Source: Pseudomonadota bacterium (GTDB lineage: Bacteria; Pseudomonadota; Gammaproteobacteria; Steroidobacterales; Woeseiaceae). From it: a stretch of DNA of 64,000 nucleotides. Shown in pieces: positions 1,387-59,998 of this stretch (its first letter is position 1; each line of letters opens with the position of its first letter). Under the pieces are notes generated by a model that had not been told where the DNA came from, made no database searches, and saw only the letters and a list, made by a program, of their open reading frames with translations. The stretch is taken from positions 1-64,000 of the forward strand of contig JADFNG010000002.1 in assembly GCA_022563505.1 (NCBI GenBank), given 5' to 3'. Position numbers and translations under genes: made by a program.

Positions 1387-2409
1387 ATGGCGAAGAGAAA
1401 GGTCAACATTAAGGATGTCGCTGCCAGGGCGGATGTCCACCCATCTACGGTATCTCGTGTTCTTAATCCTGAGACTCGATCGATGGTCTCTGCAAGCGTG
1501 GCGGAGCGGGTCAGCCGTATTGCAAGTGAAATGGGTTATGCGCGCAGTTCGCTCGCATATGGTCTGCGGACAGGGCGGACGCAAACGGTCGGCGTGGTCA
1601 TACCGGACCTGACCAATCCGTTATTTCCGCCCATTATCCGGCAAATTGAACGTAGATTGGCGGAGCAAGGCTATATTGCGATATTGGCTGATTCGGATAA
1701 CAACCATGAGAATGAGAAAGTCATCGTACAGTCGTTAATGTCCCGTAATGTGGACGGACTCATTCTGGCCACGGCACATCGCCTGGATTCCGTTGTAATA
1801 GCCTGTGTGGAAGAAAATATTCCGCTGGTGCTGGTCAATCGGACGATCGATGCACATTCTGTGACTGCGGTGATCAATGATGACGCGCATGGTATCGAAC
1901 TGGCGGCATCTCATCTCGTTGGACTCGGTCACGAAATGATCGCGTATATCGGCGGGCCACAGGATACCTCTACCGGACACGAGCGCTTCCTGGCGTTCAA
2001 GCATCTCAAGAATGCCGGACACTTCAAGTCTCACAGCGATTTGATTCGCAACTGCAAGGCATTTACGGAAATCGAAGGCCGCCGAGGTTTTCTAACCTTG
2101 CTGAAGAAGGATAGAAAATTCACTGCCGTTATCGCGGCCAACGACCTGCTGGCGCTGGGATGCTACGACGCGCTGTCGGAGCTTGGCCTTCGTTGCCCGA
2201 ATGATATTTCGGTGACCGGATTCAACGACATGCCGTTTGTCGACCGATTGGCTCCGCCATTGACGTCGGTGCACATTCCGCACGAGGAGATCGGTAATCA
2301 GGCGGCCGAGTTGCTACTTGAGAAAATGCGCAATCCTCAGTCGCCTATCAGGACAGTCAATATCCTGCCGGAACTGATTGTCCGGGGATCAACAGCACCA
2401 CCGGCATAA
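1387..2409 (+). CDS. LacI family transcriptional regulator (LacI-1)
   Basis: 340 residues, the full length of the family. The helix-turn-helix occupies residues 8-27 (recognition segment HPSTVSRVL), followed by the hinge (LAYGLRTGRT) and a periplasmic-binding-protein-like effector domain from about residue 62 (VGVVIPDLTNPLF). The two bases-reading positions, Tyr17-Gln18 in E. coli LacI, are Pro-Ser here. The protein is a paralogue of LacI-2 at 43232-44260: they share IPLVLVNRTID, GPQ-TSTG and NDLLALGC-DA. It is a natural candidate to bind the TGCAATCGTTTGCA operators in the window. It converges on the SuyB-like gene with a 7-base gap. The effector is unknown. Confidence 0.95.
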   Translation: MAKRKVNIKDVAARADVHPSTVSRVLNPETRSMVSASVAERVSRIASEMGYARSSLAYGLRTGRTQTVGVVIPDLTNPLFPPIIRQIERRLAEQGYIAILADSDNNHENEKVIVQSLMSRNVDGLILATAHRLDSVVIACVEENIPLVLVNRTIDAHSVTAVINDDAHGIELAASHLVGLGHEMIAYIGGPQDTSTGHERFLAFKHLKNAGHFKSHSDLIRNCKAFTEIEGRRGFLTLLKKDRKFTAVIAANDLLALGCYDALSELGLRCPNDISVTGFNDMPFVDRLAPPLTSVHIPHEEIGNQAAELLLEKMRNPQSPIRTVNILPELIVRGSTAPPA

Positions 2410-43231: not shown

Positions 43232-44260
43232 TTACTTATACGCCACTGCCGTTGAATTTCGAATCACCAATCGAGGCTGCATTCTGAGTTCGCCGGGCCC
43301 GTTGTTCTCACCACTGATCATATCCAGCAGGATCCTGGTTGCCTGCGAGCCCATCTCGTATTTTGGCACCAGCACCGTCGTCAATGCCGGGCTCATACGT
43401 TCAAGAAACTGAATGTCATCGTAGCCGCTAATCGAAATATTCTCGGGAACCAGCAGTCCGATCTCCTTCATTGCATCCATGCAACCGAGCGCCAGCAAAT
43501 CATTACCGGCAACAATCGCTGTAAATCCATTGTCCCGTGCCAGCAATTTTCTAAATGCACGCCGCCCCTCTTCAACCGTGAATTTTTCAGTTATCTCGAC
43601 CAGGTCCGAGCGCAGACTGTGGACTCGCAAATGATCGGCCATGACTCTTGCCCGATGATAGCCGGTTGAGGTGTGTTGCGGTCCTGCAATGTGCGCAATG
43701 TTAGTGTGTTTCAGGCTGATCAAATGGTCGAGTACCGCCCGAATTCCGAAATCCTCGTCGATAACGACGGCATTAACGCCATCGTGGTCGATCGTACGAT
43801 TCACGAGAACCAGGGGGATGTCATTGTCGATGCATTCCTTGATGACCGGATCCGTACGCCGCGCCGTCGCGATGATCACCCCATCGATCGAGCGTCCCTG
43901 CATCATTCTGAGCGCGTCCCGTTCTTTTGCTTCCTCATCATCGGTATTCGCCGTGATGACGGTATAGCCAACCGCTTCGGCCGTGTCCTGAATGCCACGG
44001 ATAATGGGTGGGAACACCGGGTTCATCAGATCCGGAATCAACACGCCAATGGCGAAAGAGCGATTTTGCTTCAGCGAAGACGCAACAATGTTTGGATAGT
44101 AACCCAGTTTCTTCGCCGCTTTTTCCACTTTCTTAACAACTTCAGGCGAAATCTGGTCGCATTTTTCCGGACTCAGCGCACGCGAGACTGTCGAGTGGTG
44201 CACATCCACCAAGTCGGCGATATCACGTATGGTTACTTTTCTCCGGGTCTTGCGCTGCAT
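43232..44260 (-). CDS. LacI family transcriptional regulator (LacI-2)
   Basis: 342 residues. Helix-turn-helix at about 9-29 (IRDIADLVDVHHSTVSRAL), hinge, and effector domain from about 68 (IGVLIPDLMNPVFPP). It is paralogous to LacI-1. At the two base-reading positions it has His-Ser where LacI-1 has Pro-Ser, so related but not identical operators are expected. It is the last gene of the long operon that begins at 54026 behind operator G, 12 bp after DctM, so it would control its own expression if it binds G. The effector is unknown. Confidence 0.95.
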   Translation of the reverse strand: MQRKTRRKVTIRDIADLVDVHHSTVSRALSPEKCDQISPEVVKKVEKAAKKLGYYPNIVASSLKQNRSFAIGVLIPDLMNPVFPPIIRGIQDTAEAVGYTVITANTDDEEAKERDALRMMQGRSIDGVIIATARRTDPVIKECIDNDIPLVLVNRTIDHDGVNAVVIDEDFGIRAVLDHLISLKHTNIAHIAGPQHTSTGYHRARVMADHLRVHSLRSDLVEITEKFTVEEGRRAFRKLLARDNGFTAIVAGNDLLALGCMDAMKEIGLLVPENISISGYDDIQFLERMSPALTTVLVPKYEMGSQATRILLDMISGENNGPGELRMQPRLVIRNSTAVAYK

Positions 44261-52721: not shown

Positions 52722-54026
52722 TCAGTACTGGTTGGCCACGAACAATTCCTGGGCCGGGAACAAGGTAATCACCTTGCAACCATCGTTTGTGACGATCACC
52801 TCTTCCTCTATCCTCGCTGCGCCATTGCCGTCTGCAGCCGGACAATAGGTTTCGAGCGCAAAAACCATGCCTTCCTGCAGTTCAAAGGGATTGTCGAAAG
52901 AAACCAGCCTGCTGATGATCGGGCGTTCGTGAAGTGCAAGGCCGAGGCCATGTCCGAACTGCAGCCCGAAGGCTTCCATTTCATTGGCAAAGCCGAATTC
53001 TTCTGCCTTTGGCCACAACGCCGCGATTTTGTCGGTCGTGAGTCCAGGACGGACCAGGGTGATCGCAGCATCCAGCCACTCCCGTGCCCGCTTGTAGGCA
53101 TCGACTTGTGCCGGTGTCGACAAGCCCACATTCAGGGTGCGGTAATAGCAGGTCCTGTAGCCCATGTAGGACTGGATAATATCGAAAAATGCCTGATCTC
53201 CCGGGCGGTACATGCGATCGGTGAAGTTGTGCGGATGCGGTGAACAGCGCTCACCGGACACTGCATTGATGGCCTCTACGTCATCAGATCCGTTGTCGTA
53301 GAGAAATTTGTTGGCCAGAGCGACCATCTCATTTTCCCGCATCCCGGGCTTTAATTTATCGGCGATTAGCTGGTACGCACCGTCGACAAGGGCCGCCGAC
53401 ATGTTCAGGAGAATGAGCTCATCCATGCTCTTGATTTGACGCGCGTCGAGAAACACTTGCTGTCCGTCGCGAATATCGAGTCCTTCTTGCTGCAGCGCGA
53501 ACATCATCGGCGGTTCAACGATGTCGACGCCAATCGGCATGTCTGCGACACCTTCGATCTTGAGAAGATCGTGAATTTCTTTCGCGGCGTTCTTGAAAAG
53601 ATCTGCTTCCACCGGCACCGAGCCACGCAAGCCGAGCATGCCCGCTTTACAATGATCGGGCTTCAGCCAGGGTGCATACAGGCGATGGTGGGCTGCGGCC
53701 GATCCAAAATCCCACAGATAGGGATTGGAATTGCCGGTAAAAAGCGCATAACGGCAAATCTTGTCGCGGCTCCATTCGCCAATGACGCTGCTGGTCAGGT
53801 AGCGAATATTATTGTTGTCGAAGCACAGCAAAGCGCCCAGATCCGAGTTCCGCAAAGCCTGCTCGGCACGAGCGATGCGGTACTTGTGCAACCGTTGAAA
53901 ATTTACACGCTCTTCGAAGTCGACGTGAGTGCGGCCCGGTGCAGCAATGGGCCGATCCCAGTTCCAATTCGGCTGGATATCTTCTGGACGGATGATATCC
54001 GGTTCCCTTGACTGAGTTTTTGACAT
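52722..54026 (-). CDS. M24-fold (Xaa-Pro peptidase/creatinase/DddP-like) protein with altered metal site
   Basis: 434 residues. The N-terminal creatinase-type domain (LLCFDNNNIRYLTSSVIGEWSR) and the C-terminal pita-bread fold are both present. Of the five usual metal ligands, Asp in AFFDIIQSY, His in GHGLGLALHERP, Glu in FALETYCP and Glu in RIEEEVIV are there, but the second Asp (usually in GY-xx-D-x-x-R-T) is Cys in GYRTCYYRT. The N-terminal layout recalls the DMSP lyase DddP, which has the same fold. It is thus possibly a non-peptidase lyase or hydrolase. It heads the long operon to LacI-2; operator G is 115 bp upstream. Confidence 0.85.
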   Translation of the reverse strand: MSKTQSREPDIIRPEDIQPNWNWDRPIAAPGRTHVDFEERVNFQRLHKYRIARAEQALRNSDLGALLCFDNNNIRYLTSSVIGEWSRDKICRYALFTGNSNPYLWDFGSAAAHHRLYAPWLKPDHCKAGMLGLRGSVPVEADLFKNAAKEIHDLLKIEGVADMPIGVDIVEPPMMFALQQEGLDIRDGQQVFLDARQIKSMDELILLNMSAALVDGAYQLIADKLKPGMRENEMVALANKFLYDNGSDDVEAINAVSGERCSPHPHNFTDRMYRPGDQAFFDIIQSYMGYRTCYYRTLNVGLSTPAQVDAYKRAREWLDAAITLVRPGLTTDKIAALWPKAEEFGFANEMEAFGLQFGHGLGLALHERPIISRLVSFDNPFELQEGMVFALETYCPAADGNGAARIEEEVIVTNDGCKVITLFPAQELFVANQY

Positions 54027-54141: not shown

Positions 54142-54155
54142 TGCAAACGTGTGCA
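54142..54155. promoter_or_regulatory. LacI-type operator G
   Basis: TGCAAACGTGTGCA, 115 bp before the M24-fold gene start on the minus strand and about 90 bp before the plus-strand FmdB-like gene. It is identical to operator H. Confidence 0.85.
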
Positions 54156-54526: not shown

Positions 54527-55093
54527 TCAGAAATATTCTCGCAGCCGTCCCTCAATCGTCGCAGCTCTTACACCGTAGCCGAACAGGTCCAGGAAGCGGC
54601 CCTGGCGATCCATCAGGAACAGGTACGAGCTGTGGTACACGCTGTCAGTTGCCTGCTCGACCCCGTAGGTCACATTGAACGATGCAGCGACGGCATCGAG
54701 TTGCTGCCGGGACCCGGTTAGCCCGACCATTGCCGGATGAAAGGCTGCGACGTAGCGCGCGAGTATTTCCGGTGTGTCATTATCGACATCCACGCTAATG
54801 AATATTGGCTGCACGTTCGCAGCAGCATCACCAAGATTCCGCAATACACGGGCAACCTCGAAAAGCGTCGTCGGGCATACGTCCGGACAGCGCGTGAAGC
54901 CGAAAAAGACCAGCCGCAGCTTGCCATCGTAACTGTGTTCAGTCACCACTTGACCCTGATGGTCAATCAATTCGAAGTTGCCTTTCACGACCTCTTCTGC
55001 ATAAGCCGTTGCGCTCGCAGCAAGGCAGAGCAAGGCAAGCCGGAAACCTGCCGCGAGGGTTGTCATGACTGAGTTATTTCGTTTGTACTGCAT
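54527..55093 (-). CDS. SCO1/SenC family copper chaperone/thiol protein
   Basis: 188 residues from ATG at 55093, which overlaps the stop of the propeller gene (TGATG). A signal peptide covers about residues 1-32. The thioredoxin-like fold has the copper/thiol site FGFTRCPDVCPTTL and the conserved His in VYHSSYLFLMDRQG. SCO1 delivers copper to CuA centres of oxidases or acts as a periplasmic thiol reductant. It is the last gene of the redox cluster 59817-54527, so it may mature a copper protein of that cluster. Confidence 0.92.
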   Translation of the reverse strand: MQYKRNNSVMTTLAAGFRLALLCLAASATAYAEEVVKGNFELIDHQGQVVTEHSYDGKLRLVFFGFTRCPDVCPTTLFEVARVLRNLGDAAANVQPIFISVDVDNDTPEILARYVAAFHPAMVGLTGSRQQLDAVAASFNVTYGVEQATDSVYHSSYLFLMDRQGRFLDLFGYGVRAATIEGRLREYF

Positions 55094-56214
55094 CAGTGAC
55101 AAAAATTGTTTGAGATCGCAAGTGCAGCCGGCCCGATATCCAGCGGCAGGTTGAGTATCGACGACAACCTGATTCGATTGCGCATGTCGAAGAACTCCAC
55201 CGAGCCGTTCTCCGGTACCGGAATCGCCAGCGTTCGGGAGTCTGACGTCACAATGCCGTCCAGTGGCGCACCATTGAGTTCGTAGCGGGCCGTGACGCTG
55301 CCGTCATCGATATCGATGAATACAACATGCCCGGACTCGCTGACAGCGGCCGCTGTCGTATCCAGCCAGCCCGGGTTGATAAACAAGGGATGACTCACCG
55401 CAGGAACGGTATAAAGCGATGCTCCGGTTGCGGTCCAAATGGCGGTCAGACTACGGTCACCGTTATTCGGCACCAGCATGTAACGTCCGTCGGCGGTACC
55501 CCACGGCCGACCTGGCCTGCTGCCAACTTGGATTTTCAGCAACGGAGTAAACGTCTTCAAATCGATCATGTGCACGACATTGGCCGATGCTTCACTGACA
55601 AAGGCAACAGTGCCATCAATGCTGCGCGAGATTGCGGACAAGCCCGACCCGGGCCGGGTCAACTCGATGACCCTCCTTTCTGACCAGAGGTTTACCGAAT
55701 TGAACGTCCCTTTGCTGTCATCCACCCAGAACAAAGTGGCACCATCAGCACTGAATGTGAACCCCGAATCCGTGTGCACATCATCGACGGATAGCAGCAC
55801 GGCACGACGACGAATTGCATGCACCTCGAGCCGGTCTGCTACGTTGTCAAAAATGGCCACCGTTTCACCGACGGGGCTCATTGCAATGGTTGCAGGCGTC
55901 AAACTCAGCGGATAGTGAAACTGCTCCAACGCCGAAGTACTGAGGTCGATTAAGGTCATGCTCTTATCCGCCTCATGCCCAATGACCAGCGCTTTCAGTC
56001 GTGCGGACGCCGCCACGGATGAGGGCGCCCGCGTCAGCTCAATGGTATGGGCCAGAGATTTTTCCTGCAGATCGATGATGAATATCGATTTGCTGCTGGC
56101 GCTGGCAATGAAAGCATAACGCGCCCCGTCGTCAAACTGTGCGAACGCTGCTGGCACAATCAGGACAGCCAAAATCAGGCTGGCCATCAATTTGCTGATC
56201 GTTTTGGAAAACAC
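55093..56214 (-). CDS. Exported YVTN/WD40-like beta-propeller protein
   Basis: 373 residues from a GTG start with a signal peptide (about 1-25). Repeated blades of the YVTN type are seen (RYAFIASASSKSIFIIDLQ, TVAFVSEASANVVHMIDLKT, GHVVFIDIDDGSVTARYEL). The C-terminus ends in NNFCH. It lies four bases after the DsbD-like gene and is coupled to SCO1. It is smaller than and different from the propeller at 58429-59817. No catalytic motif is recognised. Confidence 0.82.
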   Translation of the reverse strand: MFSKTISKLMASLILAVLIVPAAFAQFDDGARYAFIASASSKSIFIIDLQEKSLAHTIELTRAPSSVAASARLKALVIGHEADKSMTLIDLSTSALEQFHYPLSLTPATIAMSPVGETVAIFDNVADRLEVHAIRRRAVLLSVDDVHTDSGFTFSADGATLFWVDDSKGTFNSVNLWSERRVIELTRPGSGLSAISRSIDGTVAFVSEASANVVHMIDLKTFTPLLKIQVGSRPGRPWGTADGRYMLVPNNGDRSLTAIWTATGASLYTVPAVSHPLFINPGWLDTTAAAVSESGHVVFIDIDDGSVTARYELNGAPLDGIVTSDSRTLAIPVPENGSVEFFDMRNRIRLSSILNLPLDIGPAALAISNNFCH

Positions 56215-56218
56215 GGTA

Positions 56219-57646
56219 TTAGCTGTTCAGACCCAGCCATGGGTAGATCAGATCGCTTAGCGCATGAAAATTATCGGTGACCAGGACAACTCCGAATGCG
56301 ACGATGACCAGCATGCCGAAAAAACCGATGGTGGGCGCATACTGGTTAATCTTGGATAAAAGCGGCATCGTACGCGACAGGAAAAAAGCGGCGAGAAGAA
56401 ACGGAATGACAACGCCCATCGAAAAACCGAACATGACGGTGGCACCAACCAGTGCGCTGCCCAGGGAACCAACGTAGATCAACAAGGTTGCGATTATCGC
56501 GCCACCGAAGCAGGTAATGCACCCCAGTGAAAACCCGACCGCAATCAGCGCCGAGCCGAAGTACGATGCTTTTCCGCCGGACGAACTTTGCAGCATCTTC
56601 TCCGGAACCAGGCGGCAAACGAGCGGTGCCCTTGAGCGAATACCAATCCACAAGCCCATCAGGATCACGATTATTCCGGAGACAACACTCAGCGTCGGAC
56701 TCCAGACAGCAAAAAACATTTGCATCTGCTTGCCGGCGTGGCCGATTCCAGCACCGGTCAATGTGAACAATGCCGTTAAGCCTGCGACGAACGACAATGC
56801 GACCCTGAGAAGCTTGCGTTTGACCTCCTCCGGAACGGCGGCGGTATTGCTGCGCAATTGATCCGTGGAAAATCCCGTCAGCGTTACCACGAACACAACC
56901 AGCAGTTGCAACAAACACGGCGTCAGCACAAACGACAGCAGACCCGCCGACAGGCCGAGTACCATGATCGGTGTCCACGGGCTGGGATTCAGCAGCGACT
57001 CCGGATATTCCAGTGGCAGTTCCCAGTTCAGGACACGTGGCGCATTGTCCGGGTCCCATGTATTGAAGAGCTGCAGCTCGATGTTGGTCGCATTATCCGA
57101 CAGTAGCGGCTTGCCATCCTCGTCGTACGCTGGAAAGCGAAGCGTCACGACCCGATGGTGATAGACCTCCAGCGGTCCTTCCACATCGAAAGGTGCGTAC
57201 TCGCGACCGTCAATCGTCAGCACCGCCTCCGGCAACTGGCGTGGCAAATCTTCTATGTGAGTAGTCTCTGTAACCAGGAATACCAGGTACAAATCGGGCC
57301 GGTATTGGGTGACGGCCTGAGCACTGTCCGTTACGGAAAAATATGTCGGTGTGGCGTACAGCACATCGACTTGCGCCTCTCCCGAACCGAAGCTGGTCCG
57401 GTTCAGGAATTGGCCGATGCTGATTGCGTTGCGGAGCTTCTCCTGCTTGACGCTGCCACCGACATTCGAGATCAGATTTTGACCCTTGATGAAGTAAGGA
57501 AAAACCAGCCAGCTCGCGGCGATCGCCAACGTCAGCGTCACCAATAACACCGCAACGACCCCCTGGTGTCTGGACGACCAGGAACCGTGTTGCGGTGGCT
57601 TCACCAGCGGCAGTCCGTTATCGATTGATGTGGTTTCTGCGTTCAT
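56219..57646 (-). CDS. DsbD/CcdA-like membrane protein with periplasmic domain
   Basis: 475 residues from ATG at 57646 (the track's start at 57805 lies inside the preceding gene). One membrane segment (about 28-48) leads into a periplasmic beta-rich domain (about 60-250), then 7-8 helices. The membrane part has TPCLLQLLVVF and LGCITCFGGAIIATLL, each a Cys-containing repeat as in the DsbD/CcdA electron conduits that carry reducing power across the membrane. A role in reducing SCO1 or cytochrome c/copper proteins of the cluster is likely. The extra N-terminal periplasmic domain is not recognised. Confidence 0.8.
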   Translation of the reverse strand: MNAETTSIDNGLPLVKPPQHGSWSSRHQGVVAVLLVTLTLAIAASWLVFPYFIKGQNLISNVGGSVKQEKLRNAISIGQFLNRTSFGSGEAQVDVLYATPTYFSVTDSAQAVTQYRPDLYLVFLVTETTHIEDLPRQLPEAVLTIDGREYAPFDVEGPLEVYHHRVVTLRFPAYDEDGKPLLSDNATNIELQLFNTWDPDNAPRVLNWELPLEYPESLLNPSPWTPIMVLGLSAGLLSFVLTPCLLQLLVVFVVTLTGFSTDQLRSNTAAVPEEVKRKLLRVALSFVAGLTALFTLTGAGIGHAGKQMQMFFAVWSPTLSVVSGIIVILMGLWIGIRSRAPLVCRLVPEKMLQSSSGGKASYFGSALIAVGFSLGCITCFGGAIIATLLIYVGSLGSALVGATVMFGFSMGVVIPFLLAAFFLSRTMPLLSKINQYAPTIGFFGMLVIVAFGVVLVTDNFHALSDLIYPWLGLNS

Positions 57647-57654
57647 TGCATACG

Positions 57655-58314
57655 TTACATCGCGCTGTCCGTAGTCGTGCCAACCGGCGCGACCTGGCGG
57701 AAGGGTGCAGCGCTCGCGGCAACTTTGATAACGAATAACTGGTCTTTGAGCTTGCAGTTGGTGCAATACACGGCGAACTCGCCTTCGGTTTCCGGCGCAC
57801 GCCACTCCAGACTGCCGCTGCTGCGGCCCGCTATGACCAGCTCCTCAATATTCATATTGTCACTCTTGAAGGTGTGCGGCTGAATACTTGCGTTCTTGAT
57901 GATCAGTTGCACGCCGGTGCCAGGCCGAATGCTGATTTCTTGCGGTAGAAATCGTCCACGCTTTGCCAGCGTCCGAACGGGCTGCAGGGTGCCGAGCTTG
58001 CCAACATAAGCAACCACGGCTTTAATTTCATCCTCCGTAATCACGCTCTTGATCACCACCATTTCGCCGGTTGCATCGATTGCCGCGCGAATCGCACCCT
58101 CACTGGCACCGCGGAGATACGGTCCCACACCGACATCGCCTTCGGCATACTCGCCGTGGCACGTCTTGCAACCAATGCCGGCGACCGTGTTGAATACTCG
58201 CTCACCCGCCGCAAGTTGACTATCATCGTTATCTTGCGCCAAAGCCGGCGACAAGAACCCTGCAATAATTAAGACCAGCAACACCGTTGGCGCTGCTGTT
58301 TCAACAACTTTCAT
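57655..58314 (-). CDS. Exported c-type cytochrome fused to a cupredoxin-like domain
   Basis: 219 residues with a signal peptide (about 1-26). The first domain has one heme c motif GCKTCHGEY near residue 50. The C-terminal part (about 115-205) has a cupredoxin pattern: ISIRPGTGVQLIIKNASIQPHTFKS (first His) and EGEFAVYCTNCKLKDQLFVI (Cys), but the usual second His and Met after the Cys are missing, so copper binding is doubtful or different. GGAAA precedes the ATG. It overlaps the redox cluster and ends nine bases before the DsbD-like gene. Confidence 0.85.
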   Translation of the reverse strand: MKVVETAAPTVLLVLIIAGFLSPALAQDNDDSQLAAGERVFNTVAGIGCKTCHGEYAEGDVGVGPYLRGASEGAIRAAIDATGEMVVIKSVITEDEIKAVVAYVGKLGTLQPVRTLAKRGRFLPQEISIRPGTGVQLIIKNASIQPHTFKSDNMNIEELVIAGRSSGSLEWRAPETEGEFAVYCTNCKLKDQLFVIKVAASAAPFRQVAPVGTTTDSAM

Positions 58315-58368
58315 AAATTTTCCAGTGCCTTGTGTGTATTCAGCGCTCGCGGCACGTTGCCGACAGCC

Positions 58369-58431
58369 AGGGAACCGCTGATCTATTCATGAACTCGTAT
58401 CTTGGCTCCAGAATACATCAGAGGTTCCCTA
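58369..58431. repeat. REP-like inverted repeat
   Basis: AGGGAACCGCTGAT ... ATCAGAGGTTCCCT, 14-bp arms with one mismatch and a 34-base loop, lying at the stop codon of the propeller gene. The right arm with its flank is repeated (23 of 25 bases) at 29953-29977. Confidence 0.65.
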
Positions 58432-59817
58432 GAGTTCTCCCGCAATGATCTGTTTCTTCAATTGCAGCGCGCTGCCGTGCAATCCGTTCATGTCGGACTG
58501 GTTTTGGCCCGGTTGCTGCCAACCGTCCGGATAAAATACGAATGCGCCGGAGTGCGTGCTGCCCCCATGAGGCAACGGAATTCTCGCCGTCACTTCCTTG
58601 AGATCCAGATCGAACACCACGACCTCGAAGCTTGAGTTACAGCTTATCCAGAGCTCGTTTGCTTCCGGATCCGGATGCAAGGTGCCGTGATCGCCTCGTA
58701 TACAGCCCGTGTAGATCTGATCCATAGCCCGCGAACCAGGAACCTCCATGGTCGCTGTATCGACCATGCCCAGCATTTTGCCGCGGTTGTGAGATTCTTC
58801 GCCCTTGCCGATCGTGTAGATAATACGGTCATCCCAGCCGAAATGATTACCGTACGGGCCATCAACGCCAGCGCGCTGTTCACTGACGATCTTGCCCTGC
58901 TCCATATCCAGCTTCATCACGATACTGTTGCGTGCGCCGGTGATGTACGCGTACTTTGCGTCGCTGGTGAAATTCACCCACACCGGTGCACTGTCGGGGA
59001 CGTTGATGAATTTTTTGATGTGCCAGCTCTCGGCATCGATAATCCAGATCGGATTGTCGGTGAGGTGCTTGCGCATGTCGAAGTCACGGTAGCGACCTGT
59101 GCCAATAATCTGCTCGCCATCGGGTGTTGCAAAATAGAGGTAGGCTTCGCTGCCTTGTTCCTGGTGCGAGATGCTACCAATGACACGGTTGTCCTTGCCG
59201 GGATCCAGCACGAATAACGGCTGCGACCAGCCATACAGCATGACACGCTGCTCGCCCTCGGGGGTCATGTACGACTTGGCATGGTGTGCCTGGCCCGATA
59301 GCTGAATGACCTTGTCAATTTTTAGCGTTCTGGCATTGATGACCAGGAAGCGACCCGCGTGCCCACCCGTTGTTGATGTAAACGATCCTTCGCCGGTGGG
59401 TAGATAAATCCACTGGCCGTCGGGCGATACGCCGAGACCATGAGGTTCGAAGACGTTTTTCCAGCCCCACGACAACACATCGTAGGTCTGGCTGACCACG
59501 ACTTCGCGAGTGTCTGCGTCGATGATTGCAAGACCTGGCAGTGTGACTCCGCTTAACAGCCCGCCGTAACCCGGGCCTTCCGTAGTCATAAAGACCAGTG
59601 GATGCTCTTTTGGGTCCCAGGCATCCGGCCCGCTCGAATCGAGATCGTACTCGAGCTCAATGCCGACCTTTTTAGTCCATTCATTCTCCCAGGCGGCTTT
59701 TTGCTCTGCTGTCGCCGCCTTGGGTGGTGCCGCGTTCGCGGCGCCGGAAATCAGACTGATCGTCAGCATCAAGGCGGCAAGTAACGCCGGCCTGGCCTGG
59801 AATATGGGCAAATTCAT
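58429..59817 (-). CDS. Exported large beta-propeller, quinoprotein/NosZ-propeller-like
   Basis: 462 residues from ATG at 59817, with AGGAGCG eight bases upstream and a signal peptide (about 1-28); the track's 59895 start is less likely. Blades include PHGLGVSPDGQWIYLPTGEG, FLVINARTLKIDKVIQL, PIWIIDAESWHIKKFIN. Conserved His lie in loops (GQAHHAKSY, RGDHGTLHPD, GGSTHSGAF), as in metal- or cofactor-binding propellers such as nitrous-oxide reductase. No CuA domain is present in this protein. It heads the redox cluster behind operator H (167 bp upstream). Enzyme activity is unknown. Confidence 0.8.
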   Translation of the reverse strand: MNLPIFQARPALLAALMLTISLISGAANAAPPKAATAEQKAAWENEWTKKVGIELEYDLDSSGPDAWDPKEHPLVFMTTEGPGYGGLLSGVTLPGLAIIDADTREVVVSQTYDVLSWGWKNVFEPHGLGVSPDGQWIYLPTGEGSFTSTTGGHAGRFLVINARTLKIDKVIQLSGQAHHAKSYMTPEGEQRVMLYGWSQPLFVLDPGKDNRVIGSISHQEQGSEAYLYFATPDGEQIIGTGRYRDFDMRKHLTDNPIWIIDAESWHIKKFINVPDSAPVWVNFTSDAKYAYITGARNSIVMKLDMEQGKIVSEQRAGVDGPYGNHFGWDDRIIYTIGKGEESHNRGKMLGMVDTATMEVPGSRAMDQIYTGCIRGDHGTLHPDPEANELWISCNSSFEVVVFDLDLKEVTARIPLPHGGSTHSGAFVFYPDGWQQPGQNQSDMNGLHGSALQLKKQIIAGEL

Positions 59818-59984: not shown

Positions 59985-59998
59985 TGCAAACGTGTGCA
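59985..59998. promoter_or_regulatory. LacI-type operator H
   Basis: TGCAAACGTGTGCA between the divergent propeller gene (start 59817) and alpha/beta hydrolase (start 60054), identical to operator G. A further half-site GCAAACG lies at 59941-59947. Confidence 0.85.

Follow-up and report, generated by a model that had tools for sequence, protein, structure and literature searches.

Propeller enzymes with multi-histidine copper sites are few, and two of those known, nitrous-oxide (N2O) reductase and thiocyanate dehydrogenase (TcDH), carry out unusual chemistry. The CuZ site of the N2O reductase NosZ is held by seven histidines, located on blades I, III, V, VI and VII and, as a pair, on blade II (PMC11573801). 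TcDH (EC 1.8.2.7) is a seven-bladed propeller that carries three copper ions in a tunnel and hands electrons to a cytochrome c with a single haem (PMC9456337); its active site lists seven histidines (PMC6504805) and its gene cluster carries copCD (PMC5328954). Methanethiol oxidase of the SBP56 family (MtoX, SELENBP1) is a seven-bladed propeller as well; it has an HH motif and depends on copper (PMC10362175). Here, we examined a minus-strand gene run at 54527-59817 in a 64,000-nucleotide stretch of a Woeseiaceae genome (contig JADFNG010000002.1, positions 1 to 64,000; hereafter the window), whose leading gene, propA, encodes an exported beta-propeller. On balance, we favour the interpretation that propA is an undescribed periplasmic copper oxidoreductase that delivers electrons to its own cytochrome, has its metal site matured by three accessory genes and acts on an organic substrate. 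A literature search joining propeller, SCO1, DsbD and cytochrome c found no description of such a system. The operon consists of the following genes:

58429-59817, minus strand: propA, a seven-bladed beta-propeller of 462 amino acids (aa); proposed catalytic subunit with a predicted histidine-lined central channel
57655-58314, minus strand: exported 219-aa protein joining a single-haem cytochrome c (CKTCH) to a cupredoxin-like domain (Pfam); proposed electron partner of propA
56219-57646, minus strand: DsbD_TM-like membrane protein (PF02683) that also has a periplasmic domain; proposed reductant and copper-handling factor
55093-56214, minus strand: propB, a second exported beta-propeller of 373 aa with the C-terminus SNN[VLF]CH; proposed maturation factor
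54527-55102, minus strand: SCO1/SenC copper-insertion protein (PF02630) with C72, C76 and H157 intact

The first-pass annotation, made from the sequence alone, had listed five co-directional genes for exported proteins here, and all five are present at that place and on that strand. A gap of 114 bp follows propA and the remaining four genes abut or overlap, so we read the run as a single tight operon. Four of the five proteins bear cleavable Sec-type signal peptides, judged by eye, and the DsbD-like protein is membrane-anchored. Pfam places four of the five (Cytochrom_C plus Cupredoxin_1, DsbD_TM, SCO1-SenC and, for propB, a generic beta-propeller), and propA matches no Pfam or NCBIfam family above cut-off. 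As the annotation had stated, the cluster encodes no known oxidase or N2O reductase; for its suggestion that the genes might assemble a quinone enzyme we found no evidence. An Rfam search of the window gave no match.

The AlphaFold2 model of propA is a confident seven-bladed propeller (predicted local distance difference test score, pLDDT, 89.9; predicted template modelling score, pTM, 0.90), in which we assigned blades and hub positions from the order of strands in the DSSP string rather than from coordinates. By this assignment the C-terminus supplies the innermost strand of blade I, and the hub residues are H422 on blade I, H126 on II, the pair H178/H179 on III, Y226 on IV, W280 on V, Y322 on VI and H377 on VII. 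The five histidines thus lie on, or within a few residues of, the innermost strands of four contiguous blades, a placement that is approximate. In an alignment of 52 relatives, reaching down to about 20% identity and spanning two subfamilies about 25% identical to each other, H126, H178, H179 and H422 are present in every sequence and H377 in 51; K338, E340 and D376 are invariant, and H343 (33/52) and H447 (32/52) are only partly conserved. The earlier description of a His-rich propeller is therefore borne out by conserved histidines at the hub. Foldseek returned, among its top 50 matches, only generic propellers plus relatives of cytochrome cd1 and methylamine dehydrogenase, and by E-value the nearest were generic YVTN/YncE propellers. 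Such matches would also fit a non-catalytic scaffold, or a metal-independent lactonase or hydrolase, that happens to sit beside a copper-handling operon. We consider this unlikely, because five near-invariant hub histidines together with K338, E340 and D376, as well as cytochrome c fused repeatedly and in different arrangements, indicate a redox metal site.

The 219-aa partner had been described as a cytochrome c/cupredoxin fusion. Both domains score above their Pfam cut-offs (Cytochrom_C, 2.5e-5; Cupredoxin_1, 3.6e-7), but the alignment shows neither a blue-copper nor a CuA ligand set conserved in the cupredoxin domain; the partner has C-x2-C in the Woeseiaceae type and one cysteine in two loci (L085, L086), and several Chloroflexi partner cytochromes have no cupredoxin at all. 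In three loci (L065, L066, L082), propA and the cytochrome/cupredoxin protein form one reading frame; cytochrome c is C-terminal to propA in L075 and N-terminal to the propeller throughout a second, 580-aa subfamily. That cytochrome c is joined at either end of the propeller suggests, from sequence, direct electron exchange between the two. Cytochrome c-propeller paralogues of the second subfamily are strongly expanded in one related family (G385, G398, G464, G484, G496), where some adjoin pyrroloquinoline quinone-type dehydrogenases, TonB receptors and flavin-linked (FAD) oxidases.

The three remaining genes look like a maturation set. SCO1 is well above its Pfam cut-off (PF02630; 151 bits, 2.6e-44), and its copper ligands C72, C76 and H157 (CxxxC plus a distal His) are invariant in all homologues that cover those positions. 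The DsbD-like protein passes the PF02683 cut-off (33.5 versus 27.1 bits, 3.3e-8) and is not the NCBIfam DsbD equivalog; of 39-40 sequences, all or almost all keep its periplasmic H133, H166 and H167, and the membrane domain has four cysteines, C247, C347, C379 and C382, that are invariant in 20 sequences. The AlphaFold model of this protein is mediocre (pLDDT 75.4, pTM 0.62), and a fold search with it gave no significant match, with CopC recurring weakly (E 0.07-0.3). In propB, the residues S368, N370, C372 and H373 of the SNN[VLF]CH terminus are invariant across 13 members, and the -CH end is possibly a copper or thiol site. As a small exported propeller with weak generic hidden Markov model (HMM) matches, propB resembles the zinc chaperone AztD and YncE propellers, from which it differs by this terminus and by tracking propA and the DsbD-like protein. 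Other copper-related genes occur in related loci: in L083 SCO1 is followed by a PCuAC gene, L087 has YtkA-like genes, and cupredoxins recur in Chloroflexi propA loci.

Co-occurrence across genomes links this set to propA. Among 296 genomes of the order, 27 encode propA; the DsbD-like protein was found in 23 genomes and propB in 21, all propA-positive, and neither was found in the 269 propA-negative genomes (Fisher p = 1.6e-30 and 4e-27, respectively, uncorrected for phylogenetic relatedness). In four genomes (G385, G398, G464, G496) with at least 3-5 propA copies, one DsbD-like/propB set was found, which fits a shared assembly machine rather than enzyme subunits. All five genes stand together in four further loci (L079, L081, L082, L083), the DsbD-like gene lies on the same strand in 18 of the 23 window-type loci whose downstream sequence extends for 1.5 kb or more, and in the second subfamily the order is cytochrome-propeller, SCO1, DsbD-like, propB (L070-L072, L121, L127, L128). 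The expectation that the neighbourhood is conserved elsewhere is thus confirmed, and the proposed maturation role of SCO1 and the DsbD-like protein holds up as well.

Relatives with 76-90% identity to propA were found in a further eight genomes of the family, and relatives about 30% identical in another family of the same order. Among the close relatives are those of Woeseia sp. OFTM247 and of an uncultured Woeseiaceae bacterium. A scan of genome contigs recovered window-type propA from Porticoccaceae, a Deltaproteobacterium, Fraserbacteria, Trueperaceae, Actinobacteria and Acidobacteria, as well as from many Chloroflexi (SAR202, Dehalococcoidales, Caldilineaceae). We also noted a varying mix of neighbours in four Chloroflexi loci (L093, L096, L097, L100), comprising a NirJ2-like radical SAM protein, a cytochrome bd-like membrane protein, a small cytochrome c, cupredoxins and a NarL-type two-component pair. 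Four propA loci from different phyla have rhodanese-type sulfurtransferases encoded close by (L083, 13777-14706; L085, 12298-13221; L096; L097). A plasmid search returned two generic matches only. Because the propA profile matches generic propellers only, annotation currently misses the family. Judged by sequence, the operon is a conserved redox module that we could match to no described family in the libraries searched.

Identifying the regulatory context of the operon is relevant to its likely substrate, and two further features of the window bear on it:

59985-59998, no strand assigned: LacI-type operator TGCAAACGTGTGCA, in the interval that separates propA from the FrsA-like gene
52722-54026, minus strand: M24-family protein (creatinase/DddP-like; PF00557), with its own operator copy at 54142-54155

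The operator pattern has 20 matches in the window versus 2.7 expected, and the palindrome TGCAAACGTNTGCA and near variants lie at 395, 7742, 9647, 13485, 23631, 33462, 40925, 54142 and 59985. TGCAAACGTGTGCA stands both on the propA side and upstream of the M24 gene, and the exact 14-mer is also found upstream of propA in four other loci (L059, L060, L061, L083). With one mismatch allowed, most operator sites of the whole genome fall on the contig of the window. The first-pass annotation had placed the operon under an operator; the site is real, but it lies between propA and a divergent FrsA-like gene (60033, plus strand) and may serve both. The window also encodes two LacI-family proteins (1387-2409, plus strand; 43232-44260, minus strand), a TonB receptor, TRAP and TctA transporters, 2-oxoacid dehydrogenase E1/E2, aldehyde dehydrogenase, glutathione S-transferases and a molybdopterin-binding oxidase subunit. 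From its gene content, the window appears to be a catabolic island whose LacI-type sites look like a substrate-specific catabolic regulon. Since the operon shares its operator with this island, an organic compound is a likelier substrate than N2O. The M24 protein may act in the same pathway as propA. It reaches 107.6 bits against the DddP model, whose cut-off is 600, and reads GYRTCYYRT in a region where M24 enzymes usually read GYxSD; an M24-family gene recurs near both propA subfamilies (L061, L065, L073, L074, L131).

Taken together, the first-pass interpretation is partly supported; the invariant -CH terminus of propB, the spread across phyla, the natural fusions and the catabolic LacI regulon go beyond it. 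In the mechanism that we propose, the five conserved histidines on four contiguous propA blades would hold a small copper site in the central channel, probably of two or three ions, and electrons would flow from propA to a dedicated cytochrome c, fused to it or encoded next door. SCO1, the DsbD-like protein and propB would provide copper delivery, copper reduction and site maturation, and a single accessory set would serve several propA paralogues in some genomes. The likeliest substrate of the Woeseiaceae propA is an imported organic compound or its breakdown product, which the enzyme would oxidise, as suggested by the position of the operon within a LacI-controlled catabolic island. If this is true, a further periplasmic oxidoreductase family with its own maturation genes exists in bacteria, among them groundwater Chloroflexi, SAR202 and relatives of Woeseia, and the conserved accessory trio makes assembly of the hub copper site testable by gene deletion.

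Several observations count against this interpretation. The five histidines could instead hold iron, zinc or haem, and SCO1 and DsbD-like proteins have other targets too. Many propA paralogues of the cytochrome-fused subfamily are located away from accessory genes, and no accessory match was found in the propA-positive genomes G409, G435 and G484, nor in G622, where propA is on a 3.8-kb contig. In Chloroflexi, the neighbouring genes look respiratory rather than catabolic, so the function of propA may differ between branches.

Haem deserves separate mention, as propA might be a haem d1-type enzyme related to NirS and NirN, which combine cytochrome c with a d1 propeller. NirN, NirS and NirF are among the best Foldseek matches, the cytochrome-fused subfamily is NirS-like in architecture, and the NirJ2-like radical SAM gene is present in some Chloroflexi loci. 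One relative (L071) passes the Cytochrom_D1 Pfam cut-off, barely (29 versus 25.5 bits, over 90 positions), with its propeller B just below; the window propA has no match at E 0.1. NirS and NirN, however, have eight blades and haem d1, whereas the propA model has seven blades; NirJ, needed for haem d1 biosynthesis, was found in 0 of 12 propA genomes at E 1e-30, SCO1 and a thiol reductase recur in place of d1 biosynthesis genes, and five conserved hub histidines exceed the needs of a d1 site. A d1 enzyme is therefore very unlikely.

Comparison with the copper-containing propellers is closer. SBP56 shares with propA seven blades and an HH motif, copper dependence being described for SBP56 and proposed for propA. 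The SELENBP1 site, described as HXXH, XHHX, Asp and Glu, is unlike that of propA, and propA has no SBP56 Pfam match at E 0.1. We know of no fusion of SBP56/methanethiol oxidase to a cytochrome.

NosZ resembles propA in its histidine-lined hub with a consecutive pair, in one histidine contributed by the C-terminal strand and in its copper maturation genes. Together with the cytochrome and cupredoxin partner and a weak HMM match to L-NosZ (the lactonase-type clade III), these features would suit a fourth kind of N2O reductase, with a CuZ-like propeller receiving electrons from the cytochrome c/cupredoxin protein. We regard this as very unlikely. The seven histidines of CuZ come from six blades and include a pair on blade II, whereas in the propA model four blades supply five and the pair is on blade III; W280 and Y322 occupy the inner strands of blades V and VI where CuZ has histidines. 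The CuA set of NosZ clades I and II (C-x3-C, two His, Met) is absent from the cupredoxin partner. Compared by HMM score rather than by residues, propA reaches 24 bits against L-NosZ (NF052460, cut-off 700), a match that we rejected as generic because the same genomes encode unrelated propellers that reach as much as 79 bits. A search for the NosZ gene (TIGR04246) gave no match over cut-off in the genome of the window and eight related genomes, all incomplete assemblies, but just ~60-aa matches at the CuA end of the model; nosDFYL was not seen among the annotated genes around propA, for which no genome-wide search was made. The LacI operator, moreover, ties the operon to catabolism, not denitrification.

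TcDH and propA have in common seven blades, a multi-histidine central tunnel, a periplasmic cytochrome c acceptor (proposed for propA) and copper genes nearby, and the propA profile reaches TcDH entries in the PDB (8q9x at 8e-6, others about 0.002). Four propA loci also have rhodaneses close by, and several a DddP-like M24 gene. PropA might thus be a divergent TcDH-like enzyme whose multicopper channel site oxidises a small compound of sulfur or nitrogen. This is improbable in view of the profile-profile comparison: hhalign of 52 propA sequences against five TcDH homologues (one verified against the PDB) gave an out-of-register match over 157 columns (probability 86%), a propeller-repeat match that pairs different blades and leaves the active-site histidines unaligned (set tested: K103, H135, H136, H206, E288, D314, H381, H437, H482, H528, D529, R544). 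The location of the operon in an organic-catabolism island also argues against it. Tat-exported TcDH-family homologues of about 490 aa occur separately in several Gammaproteobacteria genomes (L162-L166). TcDH is exported by the twin-arginine (Tat) route, carries seven histidines in another order and neighbours copCD or Cus genes, whereas propA, with five invariant histidines, carries a Sec-type signal and neighbours SCO1, the DsbD-like protein and propB. Maturation by SCO1, a histidine-bearing thiol reductase and a propeller ending in Cys-His is, to our knowledge, known for no other copper site. We therefore put forward, tentatively but as a serious possibility, that propA represents a new copper enzyme class, spread over about eight phyla, with a five-histidine hub unlike that of CuZ or TcDH, a dedicated cytochrome and its own maturation pathway.

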